Below are positions 32,908-55,264 of a stretch of DNA of 61,653 nt, in pieces. The translations under genes and the position numbers were made by a program. This stretch comes from a bacterium (GTDB lineage Bacteria > Patescibacteriota > Minisyncoccia > Phycocordibacterales > UBA2100), in NCBI GenBank assembly GCA_030674455.1, contig JAUSGQ010000035.1, positions 1 to 61,653 on the forward strand, given 5' to 3'. The notes below the pieces were generated by a model, which was not told the origin of the DNA, searched no databases, and was given only the letters and a program-made list of their open reading frames with translations. How positions within the stretch are numbered: position 1 is the first letter of the stretch; each line of letters begins with the position of its first letter.

Positions 32908-33873
32908 TCAACCCGTTCTTTTTTTGAAATGAACCACGGTCCTTTTTATACCTTTGTCGAAAGAAACGCGGGGCTTCCATCCCAACTCGTTCTCGAGTTT
33001 CTGGCTCGAAAGAGCATATCTGAAATCGTGTCCCGGACGATCGGCCACATGCTCGATTTCCTTTTCGGTCTTTTTAAGGAGATGGAGCAACTTCTTTGTT
33101 ATTTCAAAGTTGGTATATTCCTCCCTGCTTCCGATATTGTATATTTCTCCCGCTTTTCCTTTTCGGAAAACAAGGTCTGTTGCTTTCACGTTATCCTCCA
33201 CATACAGCCAACTTCTGATATTTCCCCCCTTCGCGTATAGAGGGACTTTTTTCCCTTCAAGAAGGAAGGTGATGAATTTTGGTATGAGTTTTGTGGCGTC
33301 TTGCCCGGGACCGTAATTGTTTGAGCTTCGCGTTATCACTCCCTGCAGATTGTAGGTGTGTATGTAGGAAAGCAGAAGTAGTTCTGCGCTTGCTTTTGAA
33401 GCGCTGTATGGATTGCGTGGATTGTAGAGAGAGTCCTCGGTAAACGGCGGGGCGTACGCAGTCAGGTCCCCGTAAATTTCGTCGGTGGAAACGAGGTGGA
33501 ATCGGGAAAGTTTGTAGTCCAGCGCAAGCTGAAGAAGGTTATTAGTTCCTTCAACATTTGTTTTTATACAAATGCTTGGATTTTTGATGCTCTGGTCTAC
33601 ATGCGTTTCGGCTGCAAAGTGGATGAGATGCGTCGGCCTGTATTTGTTAAAAATATCGGTCATGGAGGCTACGTCGCAGATATCGGATTTCTCGAAAGCG
33701 TAATTCTTTCTATTCTCTACGGATACATTGCGCAAGTCGGCGGCGTAGGTTAGCGCATCGACATTTATAAAAAGCTCACGCGGATATTTCGTTACCGCGT
33801 AGTTGAGGTAATTACTGCCGATGAACCCCGCACCGCCGGTGACAATTGTCCTTCTATCGAACTTACTTTTCAT
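32908..33873 (-). CDS. rfbB: dTDP-glucose 4,6-dehydratase
   Basis: A 321-residue extended SDR enzyme making dTDP-4-keto-6-deoxyglucose. TGGAGFIGSNYLNY near residue 13, HFAAETHVDQSI, the catalytic STDEIYGDL (Thr/Asp/Glu), YSASKASAELLL (Tyr/Lys), TRSSNNYGPGQ and RSWLYVEDN are all present. Overlaps rfbA by 11 bp. Confidence 0.95.
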   Translation of the reverse strand: MKSKFDRRTIVTGGAGFIGSNYLNYAVTKYPRELFINVDALTYAADLRNVSVENRKNYAFEKSDICDVASMTDIFNKYRPTHLIHFAAETHVDQSIKNPSICIKTNVEGTNNLLQLALDYKLSRFHLVSTDEIYGDLTAYAPPFTEDSLYNPRNPYSASKASAELLLLSYIHTYNLQGVITRSSNNYGPGQDATKLIPKFITFLLEGKKVPLYAKGGNIRSWLYVEDNVKATDLVFRKGKAGEIYNIGSREEYTNFEITKKLLHLLKKTEKEIEHVADRPGHDFRYALSSQKLENELGWKPRVSFDKGIKRTVVHFKKRTG

Positions 33874-34606
33874 GGGATAAGCGTTTTTTCATAAACAGGG
33901 AAGCCTTGTGCAAGGCGTCTATGTTGCCGATATCAAACCATTCCTTCTTGAGCATGTGCGCGCGCAAAGTACCTTCTTCGAGATACAGGGAATTTACTGA
34001 AGTAATCTCATATTCCCCCCGCGCGCTTGGCGGGATTTTCCTGATTTTCTCAAACACCGTGTTGTCGTACACATATAGGCCGGTGACAGCCAAATTACTT
34101 TTTGGTTTCAGCGGCTTTTCCTCCAGCGAGAGAATGCTGCCTTTATTATTGACCTCCGCGATGCCAAAATGCTTTGGGTCCGGCACTTTCTTCAAGAACA
34201 CAGTTGAACCTTTCTTAAACGACTTAATGGCGGGAGTTATGTCGTCCAAAAATATGTTGTCGCCCAAAAATAGTACGCAATTGTCTTTGCCTACATAGTC
34301 TTCTGCGATAAAGAGGCCGTAGGCGATGCCGTTCGGTTCGTTTTGTATGCCGTATACGATTTGGATCTGTTTCGCGTGGGTCGATTTTGGGACGAAATGC
34401 TGCCCTGAGCCGAGCAATCTCACAAACGAATCAATATGGTGAGGGGAGGTGACTATCATTATCTTTGTTATGCCGGCATCGACCAGCTTTTCTATCGCGT
34501 AGTAAATGACCGGCTTGTTGAACACCGGCAATAAGTGCTTGTTTGTAACTAGCGTAAGCGGATGCAGTCTGGTGCCCGAACCGCCCGCTAGAATAACAGC
34601 TTTCAT
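33863..34606 (-). CDS. rfbA: glucose-1-phosphate thymidylyltransferase, short form
   Basis: Makes dTDP-glucose from dTTP and glucose-1-phosphate. MKAVILAGGSGTRLHPLT is the nucleotide-binding start, then LLPVFNKPVIYYAIE, LFLGDNIFLDD (metal Asp), LEEKPLKPKSNLAVTGLYVYD and GEYEITSVNSLYL. At 247 residues it is the shorter archaeal-like form lacking the C-terminal extension. Its ATG lies inside the right arm of the inverted-repeat module at 34605-34729. First gene of a four-gene minus-strand operon. Confidence 0.92.
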   Translation of the reverse strand: MKAVILAGGSGTRLHPLTLVTNKHLLPVFNKPVIYYAIEKLVDAGITKIMIVTSPHHIDSFVRLLGSGQHFVPKSTHAKQIQIVYGIQNEPNGIAYGLFIAEDYVGKDNCVLFLGDNIFLDDITPAIKSFKKGSTVFLKKVPDPKHFGIAEVNNKGSILSLEEKPLKPKSNLAVTGLYVYDNTVFEKIRKIPPSARGEYEITSVNSLYLEEGTLRAHMLKKEWFDIGNIDALHKASLFMKKRLSHEK

Positions 34607-39884: not shown

Positions 39885-40667
39885 TCACGTAACCTCTCCC
39901 TTCACCTCGTGGAAATCAAGACCTACTTCCTCGGCGATTTTCTTCTTGCAGGCAACACGAACCTTACTCAGTTCCCGAAGGTCAAGAGTGCGGCGCCCCA
40001 TTTCTTCCAGACCGAATTCATCCTCTCGCCCTTGGCGTATCGCAGATTCTATATCCCATACGTGGCCGTTAATCTCTTTCATTTCTTCAACCCACGCATC
40101 CTTGACGTCAATGCCTTCATTGCGGTAGCTATCAAGCACCTTTCGATAGAATGTGTATTCTTTTTTGATAAAAGCGCGGTTATTGTCGTGATGCAACCGC
40201 TCAAGCTTGAGCATGGCGATGGTGACTCTATCAATAGCTTCAGGGAGCGGCAGTTTGAGACTGGTGTCGGAGGCGCTGGATTCAATCGGCACCTCGTAGA
40301 AATCAATCTTTACCTCACCGGCGATTTGACCCTTAATGATATTTCTTTCATTGTTCTTGTCGCGGAGTTGCACGGCAAGACGCCCGACATCTTCAAGCGT
40401 CAGCTTGTTTTTTCTCGCCTCCCGTATGGCGGCCTCCACATCCCATAGCGCGGCGTTAGTCTCTTTCATGCGCGTAATCCATTCGTCCTTGATGACGAGA
40501 CCGTCATCTCGGTAGCTGTCCAACACTTTCCGATAGAAATCGTATTCCTTCTCGGCGATGATGCGGGATTGTTCGTCGGTCAGCCGTTCCCGCTTGAGCA
40601 TGAGGATAGTAATTCTATCGATAGCTTCAAGGAGAGGGACTTTGAGGTTGGTGTTTACGTAGCGCAT
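39885..40667 (-). CDS. tandem-duplicated DUF6165-like protein
   Basis: A 260-residue soluble, helical protein made of two homologous halves (about 1-125 and 136-255). Each half carries LLEAIDRITILMLKRERL / LPEAIDRVTIAMLKLERL, then YDFYRKVLDSYRD / YTFYRKVLDSYRN, then a LWDVEAAIREAR / VWDIESAIRQGR helix and a final E..IDFYEV / E.GLDFHEV. The first motif recalls the GELIDKITILEIK pattern of DUF6165, usually single-copy in polysaccharide loci. Function unknown. A leaderless-type TATACT precedes it by 6 nt. Confidence 0.7.
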   Translation of the reverse strand: MRYVNTNLKVPLLEAIDRITILMLKRERLTDEQSRIIAEKEYDFYRKVLDSYRDDGLVIKDEWITRMKETNAALWDVEAAIREARKNKLTLEDVGRLAVQLRDKNNERNIIKGQIAGEVKIDFYEVPIESSASDTSLKLPLPEAIDRVTIAMLKLERLHHDNNRAFIKKEYTFYRKVLDSYRNEGIDVKDAWVEEMKEINGHVWDIESAIRQGREDEFGLEEMGRRTLDLRELSKVRVACKKKIAEEVGLDFHEVKGEVT

Positions 40668-40741: not shown

Positions 40742-41623
40742 ATGCCACTTCTTGTTGCGGTTTTATATAATCTTGCGTTGCCCTACTGGGACACGCTTAG
40801 GAAAAATCTTGCGCAAAAGGGAGTCTCATCGCTGACGATTCTTCACGCACCCAATCTCATCGGCCACCCCATAGGGATAGCGGTTCTATTCGCGCTCGGA
40901 CTTTTTGCGATGCCATCCGACCCCACCTTTTTCTTATTTTGGTTCGGAATGATAGTGATTGCGTCCGTGGCGCAAACTTTCAACATCTGGGGATTGCTTG
41001 AGACGAAATTTTTTGGCGTACAAGTCCTCAATAGCTTGGGATTTCTCGTCAACAGTATCGCGGCGGTGATCCTTGTTGGAGAACATCTGAACTCTATTCA
41101 ACTCATAGCAATCGCACTCGCTACTATCGGAGTGGTTTGTTTTGCTTGGCCGCAACGCATGGCGCCCGGTACCTTCAAGTGGGACAGAGGCGTCATGTTC
41201 GTCATCCTGTATCTCGTACTTTCTGGGTTCTCGGCGGCACTCTATAAGCTCGCCACATTTCACACGCCCGATTACAACACGTTTCTTACGGGCCGTTTTG
41301 TTGGCGACCTAATCGGATGGACGATTGTCTGGGTCATCGGTCTTACTTTAATCAGCCATCGCAGTCCTGCCGCAGAATTAGTTCGCTGTGTGAGCAATCC
41401 TTCGGGGCAGAAAATGATAGCGGGTATTATTCTCTCAACGTTGGTAAGTTCGTGGCTGATATACACGTTGCCGCTCTCAACGGTCGCAATGCTCGGGACT
41501 CTCACGATTCCGAGCGCGTATTTGTACGGACGCTTCAAATATAATGACAAGGTAACAACGCGAATGTGGGCAGGAACTGCTCTTATTGTTCCGGCGGTGC
41601 TACTTTTTATTTATTTCCGATAG
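40742..41623 (+). CDS. EamA/DMT-family transporter
   Basis: A 293-residue membrane protein with about ten transmembrane segments in two repeated halves, as in the drug/metabolite transporter superfamily. AAVILVGEHLNSIQLIAIALATIGVV, split around the conserved E, is the EamA signature, and the second half ends with MLGTLTIPSAYLYGRF. Substrate unknown; in glycan loci such proteins can move lipid-linked sugars. Its 3' end overlaps the convergent kinase gene by 24 bp. Confidence 0.78.
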   Translation: MPLLVAVLYNLALPYWDTLRKNLAQKGVSSLTILHAPNLIGHPIGIAVLFALGLFAMPSDPTFFLFWFGMIVIASVAQTFNIWGLLETKFFGVQVLNSLGFLVNSIAAVILVGEHLNSIQLIAIALATIGVVCFAWPQRMAPGTFKWDRGVMFVILYLVLSGFSAALYKLATFHTPDYNTFLTGRFVGDLIGWTIVWVIGLTLISHRSPAAELVRCVSNPSGQKMIAGIILSTLVSSWLIYTLPLSTVAMLGTLTIPSAYLYGRFKYNDKVTTRMWAGTALIVPAVLLFIYFR

Positions 41624-42370
41624 TGTCGGTTTATGTATGACGGAGACGCCGCGTTGCTGGACGACCTGCGTAGTGCAAATATTCGCAAACCGGATGGCAT
41701 CTTCAATATTGCCAGTCTCTGCATACCGCACCAAGAGAGCGGCGAAGAAGCTGTCTCCTGCACCTGAAGAATCTTTTGTTTCTATTCTTTCTACGGGGTA
41801 CATCTTTCCTTTAAAATTGGCGCCATGCTCGCCTTTGGTGCAGATTATTTTCCTCGCGATATCCTTCGCGATTGGCCACGAGCGGTCGTACTCGTAGGCG
41901 TTTATTTTAATGAATTTTGCGCGCCGCAGGAAGGCACCAACGGGCTTTTTCGTATCTACGAAGACGCAATCGTGATGCTCGCAAATATACTGCATGTCCT
42001 CTTTGGTCAAGAATCCTTTGTTGTAATCCGATATCGCGATGATATCGTATTTCTTTAAAGGGAGCTGGCGCACATTTATACGCTTCATGGTGTGGTCCGC
42101 ATCCACTCTGAAAAAGCCCTGGTTGGTTCTGTGGTGCATGTAGCGTATTTTGGTGACCTTGCGCCAATTTGTGTTTGTCACAATGTCGCACAACTTGTAA
42201 AGCGCCTTCACGTTGCGCTCCACGTTCTTCGCCATGCCTGGGTTCTCTGTCTCTTCAACTATTTCCAGGATTGGCACAGGAATATCCGGCGCTAGTCGAA
42301 GGCTGTTGCAATACACGAATATGTCGTAGCAACTCTCACCGACGACGAGTATTTTTTTATGGTTTTTCAT
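41600..42370 (-). CDS. PfkB-family sugar kinase, HldA-like
   Basis: A 256-residue ribokinase-fold enzyme. SLRLAPDIPVPILEI matches the RfaE/HldA N-terminal substrate region, VVGESCYDIFVY is the first strand, ISDYNKGFLTKEDM follows, and DSSGAGDSFFAALLVRYAE holds the catalytic Asp and anion hole. Likely phosphorylates heptose-7-phosphate at C1, matching gmhA, gmhB and the HldC-like gene nearby. Shorter than full HldA (about 315). Overlaps the E1-beta gene by 4 bp. Confidence 0.78.
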   Translation of the reverse strand: MKNHKKILVVGESCYDIFVYCNSLRLAPDIPVPILEIVEETENPGMAKNVERNVKALYKLCDIVTNTNWRKVTKIRYMHHRTNQGFFRVDADHTMKRINVRQLPLKKYDIIAISDYNKGFLTKEDMQYICEHHDCVFVDTKKPVGAFLRRAKFIKINAYEYDRSWPIAKDIARKIICTKGEHGANFKGKMYPVERIETKDSSGAGDSFFAALLVRYAETGNIEDAIRFANICTTQVVQQRGVSVIHKPTLSEINKK

Positions 42371-43404
42371 GAAAGTGTGATTGAGGGCGCCAGATGCAAC
42401 TCTTCAAACGTCAGCACGTGCTTAATATCAGGTTTCTTCATGGCTCGCAAGACAGCGTTCGCGATGTCCACTTTTGTCGGATAGTAGCTCTCGGTCAGCG
42501 CGGTGGAGGTCGGGCAGGGGACTGCGGGAGTGCAAAGAGCAACCGGCTTGTTTTTAAGCGGCATGACTTTTGCTACAGCCGCGATAATTTCAGAACCGAT
42601 TGAAAACGCGGCTGGCGCCGTATCCACACATAGGAGGCGTCCAGTCTTTGCCACTGACTTAGCGATAGTTTCGTTGTCAACGGGATTAATGCTCACAACA
42701 TCAATCAGTTCTATGCCCGCGGATTTTCCGACCAGGTCATATGCTTCAAGCGCAGATACCAGCCCATCGCCGTATGCAACCACTGTTATATCAGCCCCCT
42801 TTTTCAGCACTTTTGCCTTATCAAGCGGCTCCTCCCACATTTCTGCAGGCACGTCTTGTTTTACCTTGTAGAGCCAGCGCGACTCTAGAATAATTACGGG
42901 ATTGTTATCGCGAACTGCCGAGATGAGGAGCCCCTTTGCCATTCGCGGTGTTGACGGTATGACGACCTTAAGCCCCGGGGTTCCTCCGAACAGGCCGTAT
43001 AGCGATTGCGTATGCTGCGGCCCGTTGCCCCATTGCCGACCGACAGCGATGCGTAATGTAATCGGCACGGGGTTTCCCCCACCGAACATGTAATTCCATT
43101 TTGCAGCTTGAGTGAGGATTGGGTCCATCGCTAGCAAACTGAACTCGACTCGCCCATGGTGCACGATAGGCCGTAGACCGCTAAATGCCGCGCCGACCGC
43201 CATTCCGGTGAATGCATTTTCTGACACGGGGACGTCCAGCACTCTTTTTGGATATTTCATCGCAAGACCGGAGGTTGTTCCGTCTGCTGCACCGTCTTTA
43301 TATGAGACGCCGAGTCCAACAACGAAGACCGACGAGTCTTTTTCTAAGAGTTGGTCGGTTGCTTCTCGGACCGCATCTGTATATTTAAGTATTCTTTCAG
43401 ACAT
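42367..43404 (-). CDS. TPP-dependent 2-oxoacid dehydrogenase E1 beta-like subunit
   Basis: A 345-residue protein of the pyruvate dehydrogenase E1-beta/transketolase C-terminal type. VSENAFTGMAVGAAFSGLRP includes the catalytic Glu that activates TPP, NGPQHTQSLYGLF carries the active-site His131, and PSTPRMAKGLLISAVRDNNP and IELIDVVSINPVD are family stretches. No E2 or E3 gene is nearby; neighbours are sugar enzymes. The start at 43404 matches family N-termini. The family 1 module at 43422-43551 separates it from the alpha subunit. Confidence 0.87.
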   Translation of the reverse strand: MSERILKYTDAVREATDQLLEKDSSVFVVGLGVSYKDGAADGTTSGLAMKYPKRVLDVPVSENAFTGMAVGAAFSGLRPIVHHGRVEFSLLAMDPILTQAAKWNYMFGGGNPVPITLRIAVGRQWGNGPQHTQSLYGLFGGTPGLKVVIPSTPRMAKGLLISAVRDNNPVIILESRWLYKVKQDVPAEMWEEPLDKAKVLKKGADITVVAYGDGLVSALEAYDLVGKSAGIELIDVVSINPVDNETIAKSVAKTGRLLCVDTAPAAFSIGSEIIAAVAKVMPLKNKPVALCTPAVPCPTSTALTESYYPTKVDIANAVLRAMKKPDIKHVLTFEELHLAPSITLS

Positions 43405-43421
43405 ACAATGAATCAGGCAAA

Positions 43422-43551
43422 CCCGGTTAGTACAATTTCGAATAATTCTTGCGGCTGCTGGTTCGAACAAAAACTGGTCGTTCGCATCAGCACGCTTGTG
43501 TTTTCAGTGTATGTGTTCATATCAGAGTAATTCGAAATTGTCCTACCGGGC
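43422..43551 (-). repeat. inverted-repeat module, family 1, copy 2
   Basis: About 130 bp. Read on the minus strand it begins GCCCGGTAGGACAATTTCGA and ends GAAATTGTACTAACCGGG, matching copy 1 in arms and orientation relative to transcription. Its left arm supplies the TAG stop of the E1-alpha gene; the E1-beta ATG follows the right arm after 17 nt. Confidence 0.75.
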
Positions 43552-44544
43552 AAACACGTTAGTATAAAGTGTTTCCGGTTTCGGATACGGAGCCGCAAAC
43601 GCAAAAGCGATGCTTTCATCGGCGTATCTGATTTTCTCGCTTTCGATCGATGCGAGTTTCTTCTCGGACACGCCTGCACGCCGAAGTTCCGATCGAAGTC
43701 TTTTAATCGAATCTTGCTGCAATCGTTTTTCCAGCACATCCTCTTTTCGGCTGCTTTCGTCGAAGATCGGAGCGCTATGCGCCATGTGGCGGTGCGTGAA
43801 GCACTCCAACACCCCCGGACCGTTGCCCTTTCGCAAATACGCGACCATTTTTCCGGCTTTTACGCGGACGTCGCGATAATTCTTTCCGTCTGCCTTAATA
43901 TATTTTGCGCCAAATCCTCTAACGATTTTGGCAACGTTATGTCCCTCGGCTCGCCTGTCTTTGAGCGGAGAATTGACTGAATATAAATTATTCTCCACGA
44001 CTATAAGAAGCGGAAGCTTGAAAAGCCCGGCAAGGTTAATGGTTTCGTAGATAACGCCTTCTTCAAAAGCGCCGTCTCCCAAGAACGCAACAGTGACACT
44101 TTTTCTCTTATTGTATTTTTGTTCAAAGGCTACCCCGCAAGATAATGGAACTACGCTTCCAAGAATAGGCGTTGAGCCGACAAAATTAACCGAGCGGTCA
44201 ACCATGTGCATTGACCCGCCCTTGCCTTTGGCGAGTCCGCCTTCTTTCCCGAGCAATTCGCATACCATGCGCTTGAGATCGCCTCCTTTTGCGAGATAGT
44301 GCCCGTGTGAGCGGTGATTGCCGAGCATCTTGTCCTTGAGTCCAATACTGTCTGCAACGCCGACCGCTACGGCCTCCTGCCCTATGTAGAAATGAACGAA
44401 GCTCATTATTTTGTTCTTCAAATACAGGGCGGCTATCTTTTCTTCCGCAACACGTATAAGAAACATTTTCTCGTATGCGCGCAGAAGAGCGCCGGTTGAT
44501 AGCGCCACGTCTTGCCTTTTATTCTTGCGCGATATTATTGCCAT
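43543..44544 (-). CDS. TPP-dependent 2-oxoacid dehydrogenase E1 alpha-like subunit
   Basis: A 333-residue partner of the E1-beta-like protein. IGQEAVAVGVADSIGLKD, NHRSHGHYLAKGGDLKRM, LAKGKGGSMHM, VGSTPILGS and the TPP motif GDG (156-158) to NN (185-186) are present; RHMAHSAPIFD follows. The phosphorylation-loop type sequence is normal in length. Expected chemistry is decarboxylation of a 2-oxoacid on TPP. Without E2 the acyl group could be passed to a sugar; that is inference. The gene ends inside the family 1 module. Confidence 0.88.
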   Translation of the reverse strand: MAIISRKNKRQDVALSTGALLRAYEKMFLIRVAEEKIAALYLKNKIMSFVHFYIGQEAVAVGVADSIGLKDKMLGNHRSHGHYLAKGGDLKRMVCELLGKEGGLAKGKGGSMHMVDRSVNFVGSTPILGSVVPLSCGVAFEQKYNKRKSVTVAFLGDGAFEEGVIYETINLAGLFKLPLLIVVENNLYSVNSPLKDRRAEGHNVAKIVRGFGAKYIKADGKNYRDVRVKAGKMVAYLRKGNGPGVLECFTHRHMAHSAPIFDESSRKEDVLEKRLQQDSIKRLRSELRRAGVSEKKLASIESEKIRYADESIAFAFAAPYPKPETLYTNVFAR

Positions 44545-44545
44545 A

Positions 44546-44680
44546 CCCGGTTAGTAGAATTTCGGCTTGCCGAAGGCGAAAGCTGAGAATAATAGACGAA
44601 GTATACACATCTGTACTGCGTGGTCGACCTTACCCATCTCAGGGGCGGCAAAAAACATAGCCGAAATTACACTACCGGGC
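44546..44680 (-). repeat. inverted-repeat module, family 1, copy 3
   Basis: 135 bp. On the minus strand it begins GCCCGGTAGTGTAATTTCGG and ends GAAATTCTACTAACCGGG-T, followed at once by the ATG of the E1-alpha gene (44544). The interior differs from copies 1 and 2 and contains a promoter-like TCGACC-N16-TATACT (44600-44627) directed toward that gene. The upstream dehydrogenase gene ends inside the left arm with TAA. Confidence 0.75.
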
Positions 44681-45713
44681 ATATATCTATCATGATTCTG
44701 TTTGCCTTACCGTCTCTCATGAGAGCGATGGCCTCGTTTATGTTTTCGAGCGATGTGCGGTGCGTGACGAAGTCGTCTGCCTTCAATTTGCCTGAACGAT
44801 ATAAATCAATATATCGCGGTATATCGCGCGCAGGTGAGAATTGTCCGCCCTGCGTTGCTTTGATCATTTTGCCCTCTCCGCCGAATAAGTGAAGCGCGTC
44901 CACCAGACCAACGCTCTCTCCAGGTTTAGGTTGGCCCACCATAATGTAGCGACCAGAACCAGCCAAGAGGGGAATGGTATCCTCAATACTCTTGCTATTC
45001 CCGGAGGTCTCCACAATAACATTGACCCCCTTGCTTCCGCATACCCTTTCAACAGCTTCTCGTACATTTTCTTTTGCACTGTTTATGAATATGTTTGCCC
45101 CGAGGGATAATGCGGCATCCTTTTTACGGTCGTGTATATCGACTGCGATTATCGGGTTTGCCTGCGCAAGAACTGCGGCCTTTATGAAACAAGCGCCTAG
45201 CCCGCCCAATCCTACTATCATGACACTTTCTCCGGGCTGTACCCGTGCTTCATTCTCTATGGTCGCGAGAGCGGTTGAGAGGCCGCATCCGAGCAATGCG
45301 CAGAAATCATTTGGAATATCCGCCGGCACTTTAGTAATCCGATTTTCCGACACGACAGAATATTCGCTGAATGTCGTTACCTTGCCGCTCGGCATCTTTT
45401 TCCCTTTATATGTATACGTGGGAAAGTCTGATTCAATACCGTCTCCCTTGCGCCAGTGCAACACTACTTTGTCGCCCTTTTGCACTTTTGTTACATCTGC
45501 GCCCACATCAGCGACTTCTCCGCATCCTTCGTGTCCGAGAAGGTGAGGCACGAATTTCCCATTGCCTTTGTTGCCGGCGATTTCTTGAAGCTGGGATCCG
45601 CATATTCCGCTTACGAGGATTTTTACCAGCACCTGACCGCGCCCTAGCGCTCCGAGTTCAACATCGGCAATGACGAGCGGAGCGTTGATTGTCTCTAATA
45701 TGGCGGCTTTCAT
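44667..45713 (-). CDS. zinc-type alcohol/polyol dehydrogenase (MDR family)
   Basis: A 348-residue medium-chain dehydrogenase. Catalytic-zinc region GICGSQLQEI, LLGHEGCGEV, and a nucleotide-binding VGLGGLGACFIKAAVLAQAN are seen. The four-cysteine structural-zinc loop expected near residues 90-115 is missing (HWRKGDGIESDF instead), as in some catalytic-zinc-only members. Substrate probably a sugar or sugar-nucleotide. Overlaps the SDR gene by 4 bp and ends inside the family 1 module. Confidence 0.85.
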   Translation of the reverse strand: MKAAILETINAPLVIADVELGALGRGQVLVKILVSGICGSQLQEIAGNKGNGKFVPHLLGHEGCGEVADVGADVTKVQKGDKVVLHWRKGDGIESDFPTYTYKGKKMPSGKVTTFSEYSVVSENRITKVPADIPNDFCALLGCGLSTALATIENEARVQPGESVMIVGLGGLGACFIKAAVLAQANPIIAVDIHDRKKDAALSLGANIFINSAKENVREAVERVCGSKGVNVIVETSGNSKSIEDTIPLLAGSGRYIMVGQPKPGESVGLVDALHLFGGEGKMIKATQGGQFSPARDIPRYIDLYRSGKLKADDFVTHRTSLENINEAIALMRDGKANRIMIDICPVV

Positions 45714-46471
45714 AGACGATTTCCGGTTTTTTGCACGTTCAATTCCCGCACGAAAAGACTTTCTGTTTTGCAGAGTCCAACGAGGAATTCCGCCAGCTCC
45801 GACGGGTCAATAAGCCCCGCCACATCCGCTCGGTGCGAGGACATGCCGGTCGCTATCGCGCCCGAATATACATCAATCATACGCACGCCCCGCTTCAGCC
45901 ATTCGTCTTTTACCGCTTCGGAGAAGCCGCGCAAACCGAACTTTGATGCAGAATACACCGCCTCATGATAATTGCCTTTAAGACCGGCGACAGAATTTAT
46001 GTTTATTATTGTGCCTCCGCCGCGCGCCGAGAAATATTCGTATGCGCTTGTGCACAGAGCGATGACGGAGGACAAATTGGTATGAATGACGTTCTGTATG
46101 TCGGATACTTCACTCATAGCATTGTGTCCCTGCAGTTCAGGATTTACGCCGGCATTGTTTATGAGCACATCAACATTCTGTTTAGCGAGTGCTGCCTTGA
46201 TTTCTTCCAAGCCCTCGGCACTTCGGATGTCGGCAATGACCCCGACGAACTTTGAGTCCCTCGATTTTTCTAAGGCGCTTTTTAATGTGGCGAGTTTTGC
46301 TTCATCTCTCGCATTAGCGACTAAGTTGTAACCGGCGCTCGCGAAAGCTTTTGCCAGGTGTGTTCCGAATCCTGAAGAGGCACCTGTTATCATTACAGTA
46401 TGTTTCGCATCTGTCCCTCGGTGCGGTGTTTTTCCGCCGTGAGCCTTGTTTTTTTCTTGCGGACTTGCCAT
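45710..46471 (-). CDS. short-chain dehydrogenase/reductase
   Basis: A 253-residue classical SDR. TGASSGFGTHLAKAF (cofactor motif), NNAGVNPELQ, ININSVAGLKG and YSASKFGLRGF (catalytic Tyr/Lys) are clear. About 20 polar residues precede the fold. The start at 46471 is preferred over the ATG three codons earlier because TATACT (46481-46486) abuts that codon. First gene of a five-gene operon with the dehydrogenase, E1 pair and kinase. Confidence 0.88.
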   Translation of the reverse strand: MASPQEKNKAHGGKTPHRGTDAKHTVMITGASSGFGTHLAKAFASAGYNLVANARDEAKLATLKSALEKSRDSKFVGVIADIRSAEGLEEIKAALAKQNVDVLINNAGVNPELQGHNAMSEVSDIQNVIHTNLSSVIALCTSAYEYFSARGGGTIININSVAGLKGNYHEAVYSASKFGLRGFSEAVKDEWLKRGVRMIDVYSGAIATGMSSHRADVAGLIDPSELAEFLVGLCKTESLFVRELNVQKTGNRL

Positions 46472-46480
46472 TTGCGTCAT

Positions 46481-46486: not shown

Positions 46487-46538
46487 GCAAGCATCGTGTT
46501 TTGTTAAGTTGTATGGAAATTTTCATCCGATTGGAGCT

Positions 46539-47438
46539 ATGAGAGTGCTCGTCACCGGCGGCACGGGATTCATCGGCTCAAATATTGTGATTGAGCTCAT
46601 TCGGCGCGGGCACGACGTTGTAATAACGGGTTCTGACGCCGAACAGAAGATTTCGGGTTTCACCGGCAAGTATCTACAGCCGGGCTTGGACGGCATAGAT
46701 TGGGGAGCGGTAGGAGTGTTTGATGCCGTATTTCACGAGGCCGCAATCAACGATACTCAATCGAAAGATACGCGAGAGATGATGCGTGCGAATGTGGGCG
46801 CGTCGATGTCCCTTTTTGAGTACGCGGTGAAAAATGGCTGCAAACATATTGTGTACGCCTCCTCGACCGCCGTCTATGGCGATGGGGCGACGCCTTACCG
46901 CGAGGACCAGAATCTGAAACCTCTCACCCCGTATGCGGAATCTAAAAAAATACTTGAAGAAAAAGCTGCTGCGTTCGGCGCCGAAAATCCGGACGTCGTC
47001 ATAGTCGGACTTCGCTACTGCAACGTTTACGGCCCCGGCGAATCGCACAAGGGCAAGCGCGCGAGCATGATTTACCAAATCGCACAGCAGATGAAAAAAG
47101 GGAACCCGCGGCTCTTTAGAGGAGGCGAGCAGAAGCGCGATTACATTTATGTGAAAGACGCCGTGCGAGCCAATATGCTCGCCCTTGAAGCGAAAGAGAA
47201 CATGGTGCTGAATTGCGGGTCGGGGACAGCGACACCGTTCAACGACCTCGTGCGCATTTTGAATGGCGCTCTCGGAACGGACAGGAAACCCGAATATTTT
47301 GAGAACCCGTTCGCTTCATCCTACCAAAATCACACCGAATGCGACATGTCGCTCGCGAAAGACAAACTCGGATTTGTTCCCGAATTCAATGTAGAGCGCG
47401 GTATCGCGGATTATTCCGCGAGCGGATTCCTGGCCTGA
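46539..47438 (+). CDS. NAD-dependent epimerase, HldD-like
   Basis: A 299-residue extended SDR enzyme. TGGTGFIGSNIVIELIRRG, FHEAAINDTQSKD, YASSTAVYGDG, YAESKKILEEKAAA (Tyr/Lys), RYCNVYGPGESHKGKRASMI, FRGGEQKRDYIYVKDAV and a C-terminal SSYQNHTECDMS align with ADP-glycero-manno-heptose 6-epimerase (RYFNVYGPREGHKG..., KRDFVYV). Likely epimerises the nucleotide heptose. Start at 46539 with a weak GGAG. Converges on the HldC-like gene, overlapping by 28 bp. Confidence 0.82.
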   Translation: MRVLVTGGTGFIGSNIVIELIRRGHDVVITGSDAEQKISGFTGKYLQPGLDGIDWGAVGVFDAVFHEAAINDTQSKDTREMMRANVGASMSLFEYAVKNGCKHIVYASSTAVYGDGATPYREDQNLKPLTPYAESKKILEEKAAAFGAENPDVVIVGLRYCNVYGPGESHKGKRASMIYQIAQQMKKGNPRLFRGGEQKRDYIYVKDAVRANMLALEAKENMVLNCGSGTATPFNDLVRILNGALGTDRKPEYFENPFASSYQNHTECDMSLAKDKLGFVPEFNVERGIADYSASGFLA

Positions 47439-48010
47439 AGCGCGCGCATGCGCGCAATTATAGCGGTAGTGGAATGTCCTTTGATGAGCGGTATCAGAAC
47501 TAGGCGCCCGCCTCCCGCCTCAACAACTTTTTTCTCTACAATCTGGCCGGCTGTTCGGTCTTGCCCTTTTGCGTGCACGTTCGGCTTGAGTTTTTTTATC
47601 CACGCGTCTGGGGTCGTTTCGTCAAATATGAATACGGCATCAACCGATTTTAGCGACGCAACCACTTCCGCGCGCTCACGCTCTGGAATTATTGGCCGAG
47701 AATTCCCTTTATTGCGCCGGACAGAATTGTCGGAATTAACACCAACGATGAGCATGTCTCCATAGCTTTTTGCAGTTTTCAGATTAAGCACATGTCCGAT
47801 GTGCAGAATGTCAAAACAGCCGTTTGTGGAGACGATTGTCAACCCTGATTTCTTGGCCATACGCGTTATTTTGAGGATTTCGGCAAATGAAAGCACCTTG
47901 CTATACGCGCCTTTCTTAGGCAGTGCTTTTGAGGTATTCTTCAGACGCGGCTTTGTCGCGATACTATGGACCCTAAAACTAGTCTTTTTTTGTCGGCGTT
48001 TCGTCGGCAT
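47411..48010 (-). CDS. heptose-1-phosphate nucleotidyltransferase, HldC/RfaE2-like
   Basis: A 199-residue cytidylyltransferase-fold enzyme adding a nucleotide to heptose-1-phosphate. VSTNGCFDILHIGHVLNLKTA has the HxGH motif, VGVNSDNSVRRNKGNSRPI and ERAEVVASLKSVDAVFIFDE follow, then KGHSTTAIIARM, the family's GxSTT end. About 35 basic residues precede the fold. The start at 48010 is supported by TATAAC 6 nt upstream. That places the start inside gmhA, which runs the other way. Confidence 0.85.
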   Translation of the reverse strand: MPTKRRQKKTSFRVHSIATKPRLKNTSKALPKKGAYSKVLSFAEILKITRMAKKSGLTIVSTNGCFDILHIGHVLNLKTAKSYGDMLIVGVNSDNSVRRNKGNSRPIIPERERAEVVASLKSVDAVFIFDETTPDAWIKKLKPNVHAKGQDRTAGQIVEKKVVEAGGGRLVLIPLIKGHSTTAIIARMRALQARNPLAE

Positions 48011-48541
48011 AGCGATGTTATAGAAGAGAGTATGCGGCACATTTTGCCGGATGTCGAACGCGGTGCCACGATACTCGTTGCCGCATTGCGGCGCGGCAAG
48101 AAGGTGCTTATCTGCGGCAACGGTGGCTCGGCGGCCGATAGCCAGCACTTCGCGGCAGAGCTCGTCGGAAGATATAAGGATGATCGCCCTCCGCTTCCGG
48201 CGCTCGCGCTCACGACCGATTCGTCCGCGCTAACCGCCATCGGCAATGATTACGGCTTTGAGGATATTTTTAAACGGCAAGTCGCAGCACTTGGGAAAAG
48301 CGGCGATGTCCTTGTCGTGTTTTCCACGAGCGGTGCGTCAAAGAATGTGCTTGCCGCAATCTCGGAGGCGCGATTGAGAAAAATCAAAGTGATCGCACTT
48401 ACCGGAACACGGGGGAGTGGTTTGCGCCGCCGCGCGGACGCAGTCATTGTTGTGCCGACCAAAGAAACGGCACGCATTCAGGAGGTTCATCAGCTTGTAT
48501 ACCACTCGTGGTGCGAATACATAGATGCGACGCATGTCTAA
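47966..48541 (+). CDS. gmhA: sedoheptulose-7-phosphate isomerase
   Basis: First step of nucleotide-heptose synthesis. SIS-domain enzyme of 191 residues: VLICGNGGSAADSQHFAAELVGRY, DSSALTAIGNDYGFEDIF, VVFSTSGASKNVLAAI, IALTGTRGSGL and RIQEVHQLVYHSWCEYID with the conserved QExH metal-site region. The first 45 bp overlap the divergent HldC-like gene. Stop overlaps the gmhB start (ATGTCTAA). Confidence 0.92.
   Translation: MDPKTSLFLSAFRRHSDVIEESMRHILPDVERGATILVAALRRGKKVLICGNGGSAADSQHFAAELVGRYKDDRPPLPALALTTDSSALTAIGNDYGFEDIFKRQVAALGKSGDVLVVFSTSGASKNVLAAISEARLRKIKVIALTGTRGSGLRRRADAVIVVPTKETARIQEVHQLVYHSWCEYIDATHV
48017..48022 (-). promoter_or_regulatory. -10 box of HldC-like gene inside gmhA
   Basis: TATAAC on the minus strand, 6 nt before the ATG at 48010 and inside the gmhA coding region. 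Confidence 0.4.
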
Positions 48542-49109
48542 AAGATCTACCGCTATAGCAGCTGTTTTTCTTGATCGCGACGGAGTCATAAATGAAGAAG
48601 TGGAGTACCTAAGCGATTCTTCAAAACTGCGTCTGGTGCCTGGTTCTGCGCGCGCGATACGCCTCTTAAACGAACGCGCAATACCCGTTATTGTTGTTAC
48701 CAATCAGTCTGGTGTTGCACGCGGGTATTACCCGGAATCGCGGATTGCACACTTGCATCACGCGCTTGATGAAAGTTTGAAGGATGAGGGAGCGCATATC
48801 GACCGGTTTTACTATTGCCCGCATCATCCGGAAGGACTGGGAAAATATCGCATTGACTGCGAGTGCCGTAAACCGAAACCGGGACTCCTTCACGAAGCCG
48901 CGAAAGATTTCAGCCTAAATCTCAAAAATTGCATCATCATCGGCGATAAGGCGAGCGATATTGGCGCAGGCATTGCGGCCGGATGCCGGACGATTTTGGT
49001 AATGACCGGATACGGGAAAAAAGAATTGGCATCTTGGAATCAGCCATTCCAGCCAGGCCACGTTGCGGAAGATTTGCAAGGGTCAGTCGAATGGCTGCTT
49101 CGCGACTGA
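48534..49109 (+). CDS. gmhB: D-glycero-D-manno-heptose-1,7-bisphosphate phosphatase
   Basis: A 191-residue HAD phosphatase of the heptose pathway. VFLDRDGVINEEVEYL has the DxD nucleophile/acid pair, VVTNQSGVARGYY motif II, CPHHPEGLGKYRIDCECRKP the zinc loop (two Cys plus His set), and IIGDKASDIGAG motif III/IV. Start at 48534 overlaps the gmhA stop, so translation is coupled. Confidence 0.92.
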   Translation: MSKRSTAIAAVFLDRDGVINEEVEYLSDSSKLRLVPGSARAIRLLNERAIPVIVVTNQSGVARGYYPESRIAHLHHALDESLKDEGAHIDRFYYCPHHPEGLGKYRIDCECRKPKPGLLHEAAKDFSLNLKNCIIIGDKASDIGAGIAAGCRTILVMTGYGKKELASWNQPFQPGHVAEDLQGSVEWLLRD

Positions 49110-52166: not shown

Positions 52167-53981
52167 ATGAAAGTACTTGGAATAAAAATGACGGGACACG
52201 ATACGGGTGCGGCCCTTATAGCGGATGACAGAGTGGTCGCTATATCCGAGGAGCGTCTCAATCGCATTAAATACAGCCCGCATCTGTTCCCGAAACTTTC
52301 CATTGACTATTGCTTGAAGGCGCTCAATATTTCTCCAGAGGAGCTTGACCTTGTCGTCTACGATCCGGCTGGCACTGAAGATATAGACATACCAGATTAC
52401 ACTGTGGAGGATGTGCACATGAAATTGGGCAGCCGCTTCGCGAAAGTCCGTCTTGAGTATGTCAACCATCACGCCGCGCACGCGGCGACGGCCTTCTTCT
52501 GTTCCCCGTTCCGCGAATCCGCAGTGCTTGTTTATGACGGCTCCGGTGAAGTATTTAAAACCCATTTTGGGGTTACCGCTGCCGAAACAGAATCGTTTTA
52601 TCACGGTTTGAACGCGGAACTTACGCTCATAAATAAGACGCTTCATGCACGCTCAGGGCCCGGGCGCTATCCATACACAGTAGGTATCGGCAGGCTCTAT
52701 GCACTGCTCTCCATGGGTTATTTGTCGTTCGGCCGCTATAACGAAGGAAAGATGATGGGCTTGGCCGCGTACGGGGACGACTCGTTTCTCAAGCAGTTTC
52801 CATATGAGCGCTGGGTCGGGGGTAGGGCAGGGCAACTCGTTTGTAATGGTTCGCTCGTCATACCGCGGAGCGGACTCGCGTCCCGTACAAGTCGTGCAGA
52901 TTTAATTCGCCTGCCAAGACGCATTGCAAGTGCGTTGTATGTTCGCGCAGGTCGCGCCATTGAGAGGTTTGCCATGTTTCTTATTAGAAAAAACGGACGT
53001 CTTTTTATAGCTCCTAACATATTTGAGCCGATTGTCATGCCGCGGCCTGCACGGGACCCTAAACGAGATTCGCTCCCCGACGACTATTTCAGCTCGGTCG
53101 CGTTTGCCGGGCAGAAAATATTTGAACGTTTCGCGCTGGACACTGCCAAACGCCTGCGCGGTGCGACGGGAAGCGATAATCTGTGCGTGGCTGGCGGATG
53201 CGGGCTCAATATTGACGCGAACCTGAGTTTTCTTAAAGACGCGGGATTCAAGAATCTATTTGTTCAGCCGGCTTCGTCGGATTCCGGCATACCGCTGGGC
53301 GCGGCGCTTCATGGATACCATGTTATTTTGAAGCGCCCTCGCGAGTGGGAAATGAAGAGCGCTTCTCTTGGGCGAGCGTATTCGGAAAGCGAGATAAAAT
53401 CTGCGATTTCTGAATTCGAAAGCAAGATAATCGCGCGGAAATCTAGTCGCGTGTGCGAAGAGGCAGCGAAGTTTCTTGCCGATGGGAAAATAATAGGATG
53501 GTTCCATGGAGGTTCGGAATATGGCCCGCGCGCTCTCGGAAATCGGTCAATCCTTTCCGACGCGCGCTCACCCGAAGCAAAGGATATTCTTAACGAGCGG
53601 GTGAAACATCGGGAATTGTGGCGGCCTTTCGCCGCTTCCGTACTTGAGGAGAAAATGGGTGAATTGTTCGACCCAGCTATTCCAAGTCCGTTTATGCTGC
53701 TTACATCCCGCGTTCGCGAAGACAAGCAAGCGGTCATTCCATCCCTCGTACACAAAGACGGCACTTGCCGCACTCAATCCGTGACGCCCCAGTCAAATAA
53801 AAAATATTATGAACTCATCAAAGCATACGACGCGATTACGGGCGTTCCCGCTATTCTGAACACATCGTTCAATCTCGGCGGCGAGCCGATTATTGAGTCG
53901 CCGCACGACGCGCTTGACACATTTACGCGGACCAGCATGGACTACCTAATTCTCGAAGATTATATCATTACGAAACGATAG
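52167..53981 (+). CDS. NodU/CmcH-type carbamoyltransferase
   Basis: A 604-residue enzyme expected to carbamoylate a sugar hydroxyl using carbamoyl phosphate and ATP. The N-terminal Kae1-like domain has LGIKMTGHDTGAALI, EERLNRIKYS, NHHAAHAATAFFCSPFRES and VYDGSGEVFK. CVAGGCGLNIDANL and FVQPASSDSGIPLGAAL complete it. The C-terminal domain has WFHGGSEYGPRALGNRSILS, RELWRPFAASVL and ILNTSFNLGGEPI. Probably decorates the glycan made by this locus. Confidence 0.92.
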   Translation: MKVLGIKMTGHDTGAALIADDRVVAISEERLNRIKYSPHLFPKLSIDYCLKALNISPEELDLVVYDPAGTEDIDIPDYTVEDVHMKLGSRFAKVRLEYVNHHAAHAATAFFCSPFRESAVLVYDGSGEVFKTHFGVTAAETESFYHGLNAELTLINKTLHARSGPGRYPYTVGIGRLYALLSMGYLSFGRYNEGKMMGLAAYGDDSFLKQFPYERWVGGRAGQLVCNGSLVIPRSGLASRTSRADLIRLPRRIASALYVRAGRAIERFAMFLIRKNGRLFIAPNIFEPIVMPRPARDPKRDSLPDDYFSSVAFAGQKIFERFALDTAKRLRGATGSDNLCVAGGCGLNIDANLSFLKDAGFKNLFVQPASSDSGIPLGAALHGYHVILKRPREWEMKSASLGRAYSESEIKSAISEFESKIIARKSSRVCEEAAKFLADGKIIGWFHGGSEYGPRALGNRSILSDARSPEAKDILNERVKHRELWRPFAASVLEEKMGELFDPAIPSPFMLLTSRVREDKQAVIPSLVHKDGTCRTQSVTPQSNKKYYELIKAYDAITGVPAILNTSFNLGGEPIIESPHDALDTFTRTSMDYLILEDYIITKR

Positions 53982-54037: not shown

Positions 54038-55264
54038 TCAGTGGACCATCTCTTTTATGAATTTCGTTACGGTCTCTGTCACGTAGCGTATATGTTCATC
54101 GCGAAGGCCATGATGACAGCCGATTAATAGACTGCGCTCCAATACCATGTCCGCATTCGTCAGTTTGCCGTGGATTCTAAACGGCGTTTCTTTATACGCC
54201 GGGTGACGGGCGATGTTGCCAGCGAAGAGAACGCGGGTTTGGATTTTATGCTCCTCAAGGTAGCGCATGAAATTGACCCGCTTAATTGGCGATTCCCTCC
54301 GTAGTGTAATTGGATATGCCAGCCATCGCACGTCGGAATCGGGCAGTTCGCGAGGAAGCGCGAAATGTTCAGGATATGTCTTGAAAAAAGCATTGAGCGC
54401 CAAGAAATTCTTCCTGCGTATACGCGCGAATTCCGGCAATCGCTCGAGTTGTACAAGGCCGAATGCCGCCTGAAGGTCAATTGGCTTAAGGTTGTATCCT
54501 ATCCGATTGAATACGAACTTTCCGTCATGCGCGATTCCCTGAAGCGAGAAAGAGAAGCGCTTATCGGTAGATTCATCAAATGCTTCTGGCAGTGCCCGTC
54601 CCCAATCGCGCCGCATCTTTGCATCGTCGGCGAATTCTTTATTTTTGCACATGAGCATGCCGCCTCCGCCAGCCGCAGTGATTATGTGCGAAGCGTAAAA
54701 ACTTGTGGTAGAAGCATCCGCGTACGCGCCAGTTGGTTTGCCATCTATGCAGGCACCTATTGTATCGCAACTGTCCTCAATAAGTTTAAGTTTGTGCTTG
54801 TCGGCTATAGCACGCAGGCGTTTCATGTCATTCAGATTGCCGACGAGATGCGGAATCATGAGTACCTTCGTTTTCTTTGTGATTGCCTTTTCCAACTTGT
54901 CGATGTCTATGTTGAATGTATCCGCTTCGATATCTACTAATACTGGAATCAGACCGCATTGGAGAAGTGGATTTACTGTCGTAGCAAACGTGCAAGCCGG
55001 AGTTATTACTTCCGAACCTCTTGGAATCTGAAGTGTGTCAATCGCGAGCAAGTTTGCCGATGACCCGGAATTTACGAACAGTCCGAATTTTTGCCCGAAT
55101 ACTTTTGCAACCGCGACCTCAAAACGGCGCGTATATTCACCCGGCCCGAGCCAATCTGAATTCAAAGATTCGAGAACGGCGGCGATTTCGCGCTTGCCGT
55201 AAACCGCTCGGCTGTACCAGACCCAATCCTTACCCGGAATAAATGACGATTTTGTTTCTGCCAT
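54038..55264 (-). CDS. DegT-family PLP protein, sugar 3-dehydrase (RfbH/ColD-like)
   Basis: A 408-residue fold-type I PLP protein of the DegT/DnrJ/EryC1 family. SGSSANLLAIDTL, EVITPACTFATTVNPLLQCG and IEDSCDTIG are normal. At the internal-aldimine position the motif reads SFYASHIITAAGGGG, with His193 in place of Lys, as in the 3-deoxygenating enzymes RfbH/DdhC and ColD. RDWGRA...KRFSFSL...IGYNLKPIDLQAAFGLVQL is RfbH-like, but the iron-sulfur cysteines found after RDWGR in RfbH are absent. Likely removes the C3 hydroxyl of a 4-keto-6-deoxyhexose. TATAAT lies 7 nt upstream. Confidence 0.82.
   Translation of the reverse strand: MAETKSSFIPGKDWVWYSRAVYGKREIAAVLESLNSDWLGPGEYTRRFEVAVAKVFGQKFGLFVNSGSSANLLAIDTLQIPRGSEVITPACTFATTVNPLLQCGLIPVLVDIEADTFNIDIDKLEKAITKKTKVLMIPHLVGNLNDMKRLRAIADKHKLKLIEDSCDTIGACIDGKPTGAYADASTTSFYASHIITAAGGGGMLMCKNKEFADDAKMRRDWGRALPEAFDESTDKRFSFSLQGIAHDGKFVFNRIGYNLKPIDLQAAFGLVQLERLPEFARIRRKNFLALNAFFKTYPEHFALPRELPDSDVRWLAYPITLRRESPIKRVNFMRYLEEHKIQTRVLFAGNIARHPAYKETPFRIHGKLTNADMVLERSLLIGCHHGLRDEHIRYVTETVTKFIKEMVH

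Follow-up and report, generated by a model that had tools for sequence, protein, structure and literature searches.

E1-type carboligases and the locus

Carbon-carbon bond formation on sugars is described for the aKADH2 group, two-subunit E1-type thiamine diphosphate (ThDP) enzymes that are encoded within sugar clusters and attach a C2 unit to a sugar, after which a ketoreduction often follows. KbDH-a/b of the kibdelomycin pathway joins pyruvate to ketones in vitro (PMC12247030), and AviB1/AviB2 (avilamycin) and Pau11/Pau12 (paulomycin) have been implicated in sugar C2 branching by genetics (PMC4425429, PMC4753412). The group has been described mainly from specialised metabolism and antibiotic biosynthesis, with viruses mentioned just as unexplored (PMC12247030). 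Here, we compare these enzymes with an E1-alpha/E1-beta pair encoded on contig JAUSGQ010000035.1 of a patescibacterial genome, of which the whole analysed stretch of 61,653 nucleotides is called the window. The explanation we favour, and hold to be moderately probable, is that the pair is a free-standing aKADH2-type ThDP carboligase placing a C2 unit on a sugar of the ADP-heptose pathway.

The window pair shares with aKADH2 its E1 architecture, the absence of E2/E3 and a location within a sugar-biosynthesis cluster, and two dehydrogenases encoded beside it are candidates for the ketoreduction. The known aKADH2 enzymes act on nucleotide- or glycan-bound ketosugars, whereas the relatives of the window pair occur in Parcubacteria and phages alongside one of these dehydrogenases and heptose-type genes. 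The likeness is one of architecture and context, AviB2, Pau12 and KbDH-b being known here by description and not by sequence. An earlier note, made from the letters of the window alone, had likened the pair to YerE. YerE and YerE-like enzymes (yersiniose, erwiniose) also carry out ThDP-dependent transfer of a C2 or longer unit to a ketosugar for surface polysaccharides, and this part of the analogy stands, but YerE is a single-chain member of the acetohydroxyacid synthase (AHAS)-type decarboxylase superfamily and not homologous in architecture to the E1 pair, which makes aKADH2 the better parallel (PMC4425429, PMC12247030).

The source genome comprises 1.25 Mb in 66 contigs with a completeness rating of 97.8%. 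As the earlier note had described, the pair belongs to a five-gene minus-strand operon among glycan genes, running from 46480 down to 41600. The genes are tightly packed, with small gaps or, between SDR and MDR and between E1-beta and the kinase, 4-bp overlaps:

45710..46480, minus strand: short-chain dehydrogenase/reductase (SDR), operon gene 1; PF00106, 153.7 bits
44667..45713, minus strand: medium-chain dehydrogenase/reductase (MDR), a zinc-type alcohol dehydrogenase (ADH); PF08240 and PF00107
43543..44544, minus strand: E1-alpha, ThDP/Mg-binding subunit; PF00676, 199.8 bits; GDG...ENN motif
42367..43470, minus strand: E1-beta, open reading frame (ORF) with a TTG start; PF02779 (Transket_pyr), 90.9 bits, and PF02780 (Transketolase_C), 81.1 bits
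41600..42370, minus strand: KIN, a short HldA-like PfkB kinase; PF00294, 54.3 bits

Judged from homologues, E1-beta likely starts near MSERILKYT, at about 43404.

The E1 pair and its missing partners

No E2 (PF00198), lipoyl/biotinyl (PF00364) or E3 (Pyr_redox_dim, PF02852) domain was found in whole-genome searches for these three families; the same searches gave matches in control genomes. E2 was found in none of the 21 operon-bearing genomes checked, three of which have completeness ratings (97.8, 100 and 100%). The earlier claim of an E1 without E2/E3 is thus borne out at the level of the genome. The E1 of pyruvate dehydrogenase (PDH) or acetoin dehydrogenase works with a lipoyl E2, and here there is neither E2 nor lipoyl domain.

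The catalytic motifs are kept (GDG...VENN and GPQHTQ), in agreement with the earlier note, and the nearest PDB structures for the pair are PDH E1, placing it within the E1 architecture of the 2-oxoacid dehydrogenases. E1-alpha scores 288 bits against TIGR03182 (cut-off 393.85) and E1-beta 249.7 bits against PRK09212 (cut-off 321). Against Transketolase_N (PF00456), E1-alpha reaches 21.8 bits and falls short of the cut-off of 22.

Relatives of E1-beta were collected from 84,980 species genomes and IMG/VR. At 50-71% identity they occur in Parcubacteria and phages, and at about 30-42% in Pelagibacter, SAR86 and Mucilaginibacter; the closest of all come from Parcubacteria-type genomes (Kaiserbacteria, Nomurabacteria, Taylorbacteria and Liptonbacteria). 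Within the phylum they are sparse, with matches at E <= 1e-20 in only 12 of 380 sampled genomes. In a tree of 64 E1-betas the window protein falls in a 40-member clade (support 100/100) made up of Parcubacteria, T4-like and other tailed phages, SAR86, Pelagibacter and Mucilaginibacter. The E2-linked E1-betas of acetoin and pyruvate dehydrogenases form a separate clade of 10 (100/99). As the rooting is midpoint, no direction of change is claimed.

Two marks separate these groups. The Phe expected to stack on ThDP was assigned from its distance of 26 residues to the catalytic Glu. Three residues ahead of this Phe, the alignment has Arg in all 54 E1-betas outside the E2-linked clade and in none of the 10 within it, and a pocket Glu shows the reverse distribution (0/54 and 10/10). 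A C-terminal tail of 21-43 aa beyond the PDH fold is present in 52 of the 54 and in none of the E2-linked proteins (0-6 aa). Because related sequences enter these column counts as if they were independent, Fisher values are only a guide. The window E1-beta has Arg107 within H-x-R-x-[DE]-F and the tail FEELHLAPS. The C-terminus of E1-beta lies close to the E2-binding site in Geobacillus PDH, and for that reason the tail may block E2. Glu84 and Arg107 are 23 residues apart, and we take Arg107 to occupy the position of F434 in E. coli transketolase, by the spacing E411 + 23. Docking places F434 in the lining of the aldehyde-acceptor pocket (PMC5073344).

These observations bear on the reading that the sugar operon harbours a conventional dehydrogenase E1 (pyruvate, branched-chain or acetoin), either a relic or still active although its E2 is missing. 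The names of the matching profiles (PDH E1 subunits) and the nearest solved structures are in keeping with it. The empty E2, lipoyl and E3 searches, the scores beneath curated cut-offs, the separate clade and the altered pocket position and C-terminus stand against it, as does the fact that the ORFs stay intact across bacteria and phages. We regard it as highly improbable; a remnant or ordinary PDH or acetoin E1 was rejected on the missing E2/lipoyl/E3, the sub-cut-off scores, the tree and the column statistics.

Acetoin dehydrogenase operons (acoA, acoB, acoC) invite a different comparison, as they hold the same kinds of gene as the window (E1-alpha, E1-beta, SDR and an MDR 2,3-butanediol dehydrogenase). 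By this analogy, the product would be a small acyloin or diol of the acetoin/butanediol type, serving as a non-sugar substituent of a glycan, and MDR and SDR would reduce the acyloin. Unlike the window, acetoin operons include E2, and their E1-beta is without the Arg motif and C-terminal tail of the window clade; moreover, the linkage to a kinase and a nucleotidyltransferase is poorly explained by any free-diol pathway. We give this alternative little credence.

Linkage to ADP-heptose genes

What matters most for interpreting the E1 operon is the set of genes beside it, which the earlier note had overlooked in its account of the neighbourhood. At 46509-49109, adjoining the operon, are relatives of ADP-heptose enzymes that score just to moderately below their equivalog cut-offs:

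46509..47438, plus strand: HldD-like ADP-heptose 6-epimerase, divergent neighbour of the operon; TIGR02197, 238.9 bits (cut-off 274.6)
47411..48148, minus strand: HldC-like heptose-1-phosphate nucleotidyltransferase; TIGR02199, 175.7 bits (cut-off 181.5); domain about 47440-47866
47966..48541, plus strand: GmhA, sedoheptulose-7-phosphate isomerase; TIGR00441, 198.5 bits (cut-off 209.45)
48525..49109, plus strand: GmhB, heptose-1,7-bisphosphate 7-phosphatase; PRK08942, 175.7 bits (cut-off 178)

The HldC and GmhA frames overlap on opposite strands (47411-48148 and 47966-48541), and the true start of HldC probably lies within the listed ORF, as its domain begins only at about 47866. With GmhA, GmhB, HldC and HldD next to the operon and an HldA relative in it, all five enzyme kinds of the ADP-heptose pathway (GmhA, HldA, GmhB, HldC, HldD) are in or beside it. 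The standard pathway has no place for E1, MDR or SDR, and the window kinase is a short, divergent relative of HldA.

This linkage recurs. With KIN, HldA, HldE, HldC, GmhA, HldD, GmhB and the GT9-like protein c5 counted as heptose-type genes, 30 of the 40 clade loci have at least one of them near E1, and 24 have at least two kinds, compared with none in the five E2-type or PDH-like E1 loci. GmhA is found in 9/21 operon genomes versus 1/41 other genomes of the phylum (Fisher p ~1e-4), and strong GmhA matches (>=180 bits) in 8/21 versus 0/41. Similar sets occur outside the E1 clade: Azospirillum oryzae has a PfkB kinase, an SIS isomerase, SDR, E1-alpha and E1-beta together, and Opitutaceae locus L056 has GmhA, HldE, E1-alpha, E1-beta and MDR together. 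The earlier note held that E2/E3 genes elsewhere in the genome, with no conserved link to sugar genes, would count against it; no E2/E3 genes were found, and the link to sugar genes recurs, so that this check did not refute the idea.

The c5 protein is near E1 in 14 of the 40 clade loci, recurring in L018, L043, L054 and the phage loci L069-L077, and carries a GLGDH motif. As it had no Pfam match, c5 was modelled (mean pLDDT 89) and compared with the PDB, where its best matches were WaaF, TibC, a GT9 enzyme and WaaC. The TM-scores were just 0.4-0.5, so that the likeness to ADP-heptose heptosyltransferases is at the level of the fold; on this resemblance c5 is read as a GT9/heptosyltransferase-fold protein, for which any specificity for ADP-heptose would be putative. 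No GT9-like gene was found in the window with the c5 profile.

Much of the remaining island consists of genes for glycosyltransferases, RmlA/RmlB (32908-34606), a carbamoyltransferase and an RfbH-like protein. The carbamoyltransferase, at 52167-53981, is of the NodU type. The protein at 39885-40667 contains two internal repeats and matches DUF6165/DUF4254 weakly; L037 and L038 have a related gene, c62, close to the operon, and the short protein c69 of phage L069 is a weak match to it.

The 3-dehydrase-like protein that the earlier note had pointed to is present at 54038-55264 (RfbH NF011936, 400.6 bits, cut-off 423) and has the 3-dehydrase His (SFYASHIIT). It is probably a true 3-dehydrase, as His replaces the Lys that binds pyridoxal phosphate. 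Together with RmlA/RmlB it could provide a yersiniose-like 3,6-dideoxy-4-C-branched hexose, and in L021, of another E1 group, an RfbH-like gene with this His is next but one to E1. In the window, the 3-dehydrase gene is far from the operon and alone, and His-type 3-dehydrases were seen in three clade loci only (the window, L052 and L065), a count to be set against that of the heptose-type genes. A yersiniose-like product is therefore improbable, and the tie between product and 3-dehydrase that the earlier note had drawn is not upheld.

Oxidoreductases and kinase

MDR is the most constant partner of E1, lying within 9 kb in 34 of the 40 clade loci and usually directly upstream of E1-alpha; the association is more than chance. 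Where the earlier note had looked to a five-gene order, it is the order MDR-E1-alpha-E1-beta-kinase that is repeated, in over a dozen loci that have diverged. The best PDB relatives of MDR are ADH of class III/liver type, and MDR is a candidate oxidase that may generate a ketosugar acceptor; RmlB is encoded about 9 kb away. The window SDR falls in one cluster with that of L045 and with the SDR encoded after E1-beta in phage loci L074, L076, L078 and L081.

The kinase is HldA-like, as noted earlier, but not a full HldA: it scores 107.5 bits against TIGR02198 (cut-off 345), and its alignment keeps the HldA-like motif order with a 26-residue deletion and GMA replacing GGA. Since L040 and L052 carry a full HldA in its place, KIN probably does the work of HldA, possibly with a modified sugar as substrate. 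The KIN linked to MDR group in a clade apart (100/98).

This kinase clade is among the grounds for another reading, in which E1 would take an aldose or an aldose phosphate as its aldehyde acceptor, in the manner of DXS or transketolase, to give a 1-deoxy or extended ketose for reduction by MDR and activation by the kinase and nucleotidyltransferase. In transketolase, the position presumed to match Arg107 is part of the acceptor-pocket lining, and phages have sets of MDR, E1, KIN and HldC without an adjacent GmhA, so that E1 could precede the kinase. The genome has a split transketolase elsewhere (ORFs of 292 and 340 aa), so that the supply of sedoheptulose-7-phosphate would not depend on E1, and the characterised aKADH2 relatives take ketone acceptors (PMC12247030). 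On balance, we find chain building of this kind rather unlikely. The idea that E1 stands in for a missing transketolase is likewise weakened by the presence of the split enzyme.

Phage loci

Several clade loci are from phages. T4-type DNA polymerase, UvsX and clamp-loader genes lie next to the operon in L069 and L077, and genes for virion structure and head-tail proteins are present in L076. In the kinase tree, phage KIN are nested among bacterial KIN (98/93), which is consistent with gene exchange between phages and bacteria.

A similar set is found in the lipopolysaccharide (LPS) clusters of the cultured T4-like cyanophages S-SM2 and P-TIM68, consisting of MDR, an E1-like protein, KIN, an epimerase, a nucleotidyltransferase and a HAD protein. 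Whereas the window E1 has two subunits, the cyanophage enzyme is one short chain of about 380-400 aa between MDR and KIN (L095:11302-12510 in S-SM2, L096:5853-6998 in P-TIM68). It joins an E1-alpha-like part to an E1-beta-like pyrimidine domain, lacks Transketolase_C and keeps the R-x-D-F motif. In P-SSM2, S-CAM1 and S-CAM3, a carbamoyltransferase gene adjoins the KIN-like kinase. The function of the T4-like cyanophage LPS gene clusters T4-GC 304, 305, 307 and 308 was left open by Sullivan et al. in 2010 (PMC3037559).

Proposed pathway and implications

Under the favoured carboligase reading, E1-alpha/E1-beta would decarboxylate pyruvate, the donor suggested by KbDH-a/b, and the resulting hydroxyethyl-ThDP, which has no lipoyl-E2 acceptor, would add its C2 acyl anion to a sugar carbonyl. 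Transfer to a sugar carbonyl is the most economical reading of the fate of this intermediate, and such chemistry is known for the aKADH2 group. The earlier note had proposed such an acyl transfer, and the absent E2/E3 and the heptose linkage support it as the most likely use of the pair. MDR, with SDR, may oxidise a hydroxyl to the carbonyl acceptor or may reduce the acyloin product. The short HldA-like kinase, the HldC-type nucleotidyltransferase, GmhA/GmhB and the HldD-like epimerase would supply or activate a heptose-type sugar, which in many relatives a GT9/heptosyltransferase-fold enzyme would then transfer. The E1 step could precede the kinase and nucleotidyltransferase, as favoured by the phage sets that lack GmhA, or come later, as allowed by the relatives bearing HldA. 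We infer a C2-branched or chain-extended heptose as the product.

Several observations weigh against this explanation. No heptose-type gene is within reach in 10 of the 40 clade loci, and neighbourhood counts are inflated by the crowding of many genes in glycan islands. It was through the operon itself that the 21 genomes bearing it were picked, and most of them are without a completeness rating. One genome rated 100% complete (G249) has MDR-E1 but neither a convincing HldA-type kinase nor GmhA; therefore, E1 and MDR can work without the heptose set, and in some cases the sugar may be something other than a heptose. Conversely, P-SSM2, S-CAM1 and S-CAM3 carry the kinase, nucleotidyltransferase, phosphatase and epimerase set without MDR/E1, which makes the kinase set and MDR-E1 separable.

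A wider proposal, which we put forward tentatively and hold to be possible rather than probable, is a pathway shared by Parcubacteria and tailed phages, in which the E1 carboligase (single-chain in S-SM2 and P-TIM68) would make a C2-branched or chain-extended heptose (a nonose) that heptosyltransferase-like enzymes would put on cell or virion surfaces. Literature searches for E1 genes with heptose or O-antigen clusters or in Parcubacteria returned nothing on the operon, a 2024 survey of sugar-branching ThDP enzymes being outside their coverage.

If the carboligase explanation is true, C-C bond formation by E1-type ThDP enzymes would extend to the surface glycans of Parcubacteria and phages, where it would be tied to the heptose pathway. 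A sequence test (Arg before the stacking Phe, a C-terminal tail and no E2) would then separate sugar carboligases from proteins annotated as PDH E1, and the cyanophage LPS genes considered by Sullivan et al. would gain a concrete hypothesis for their function.

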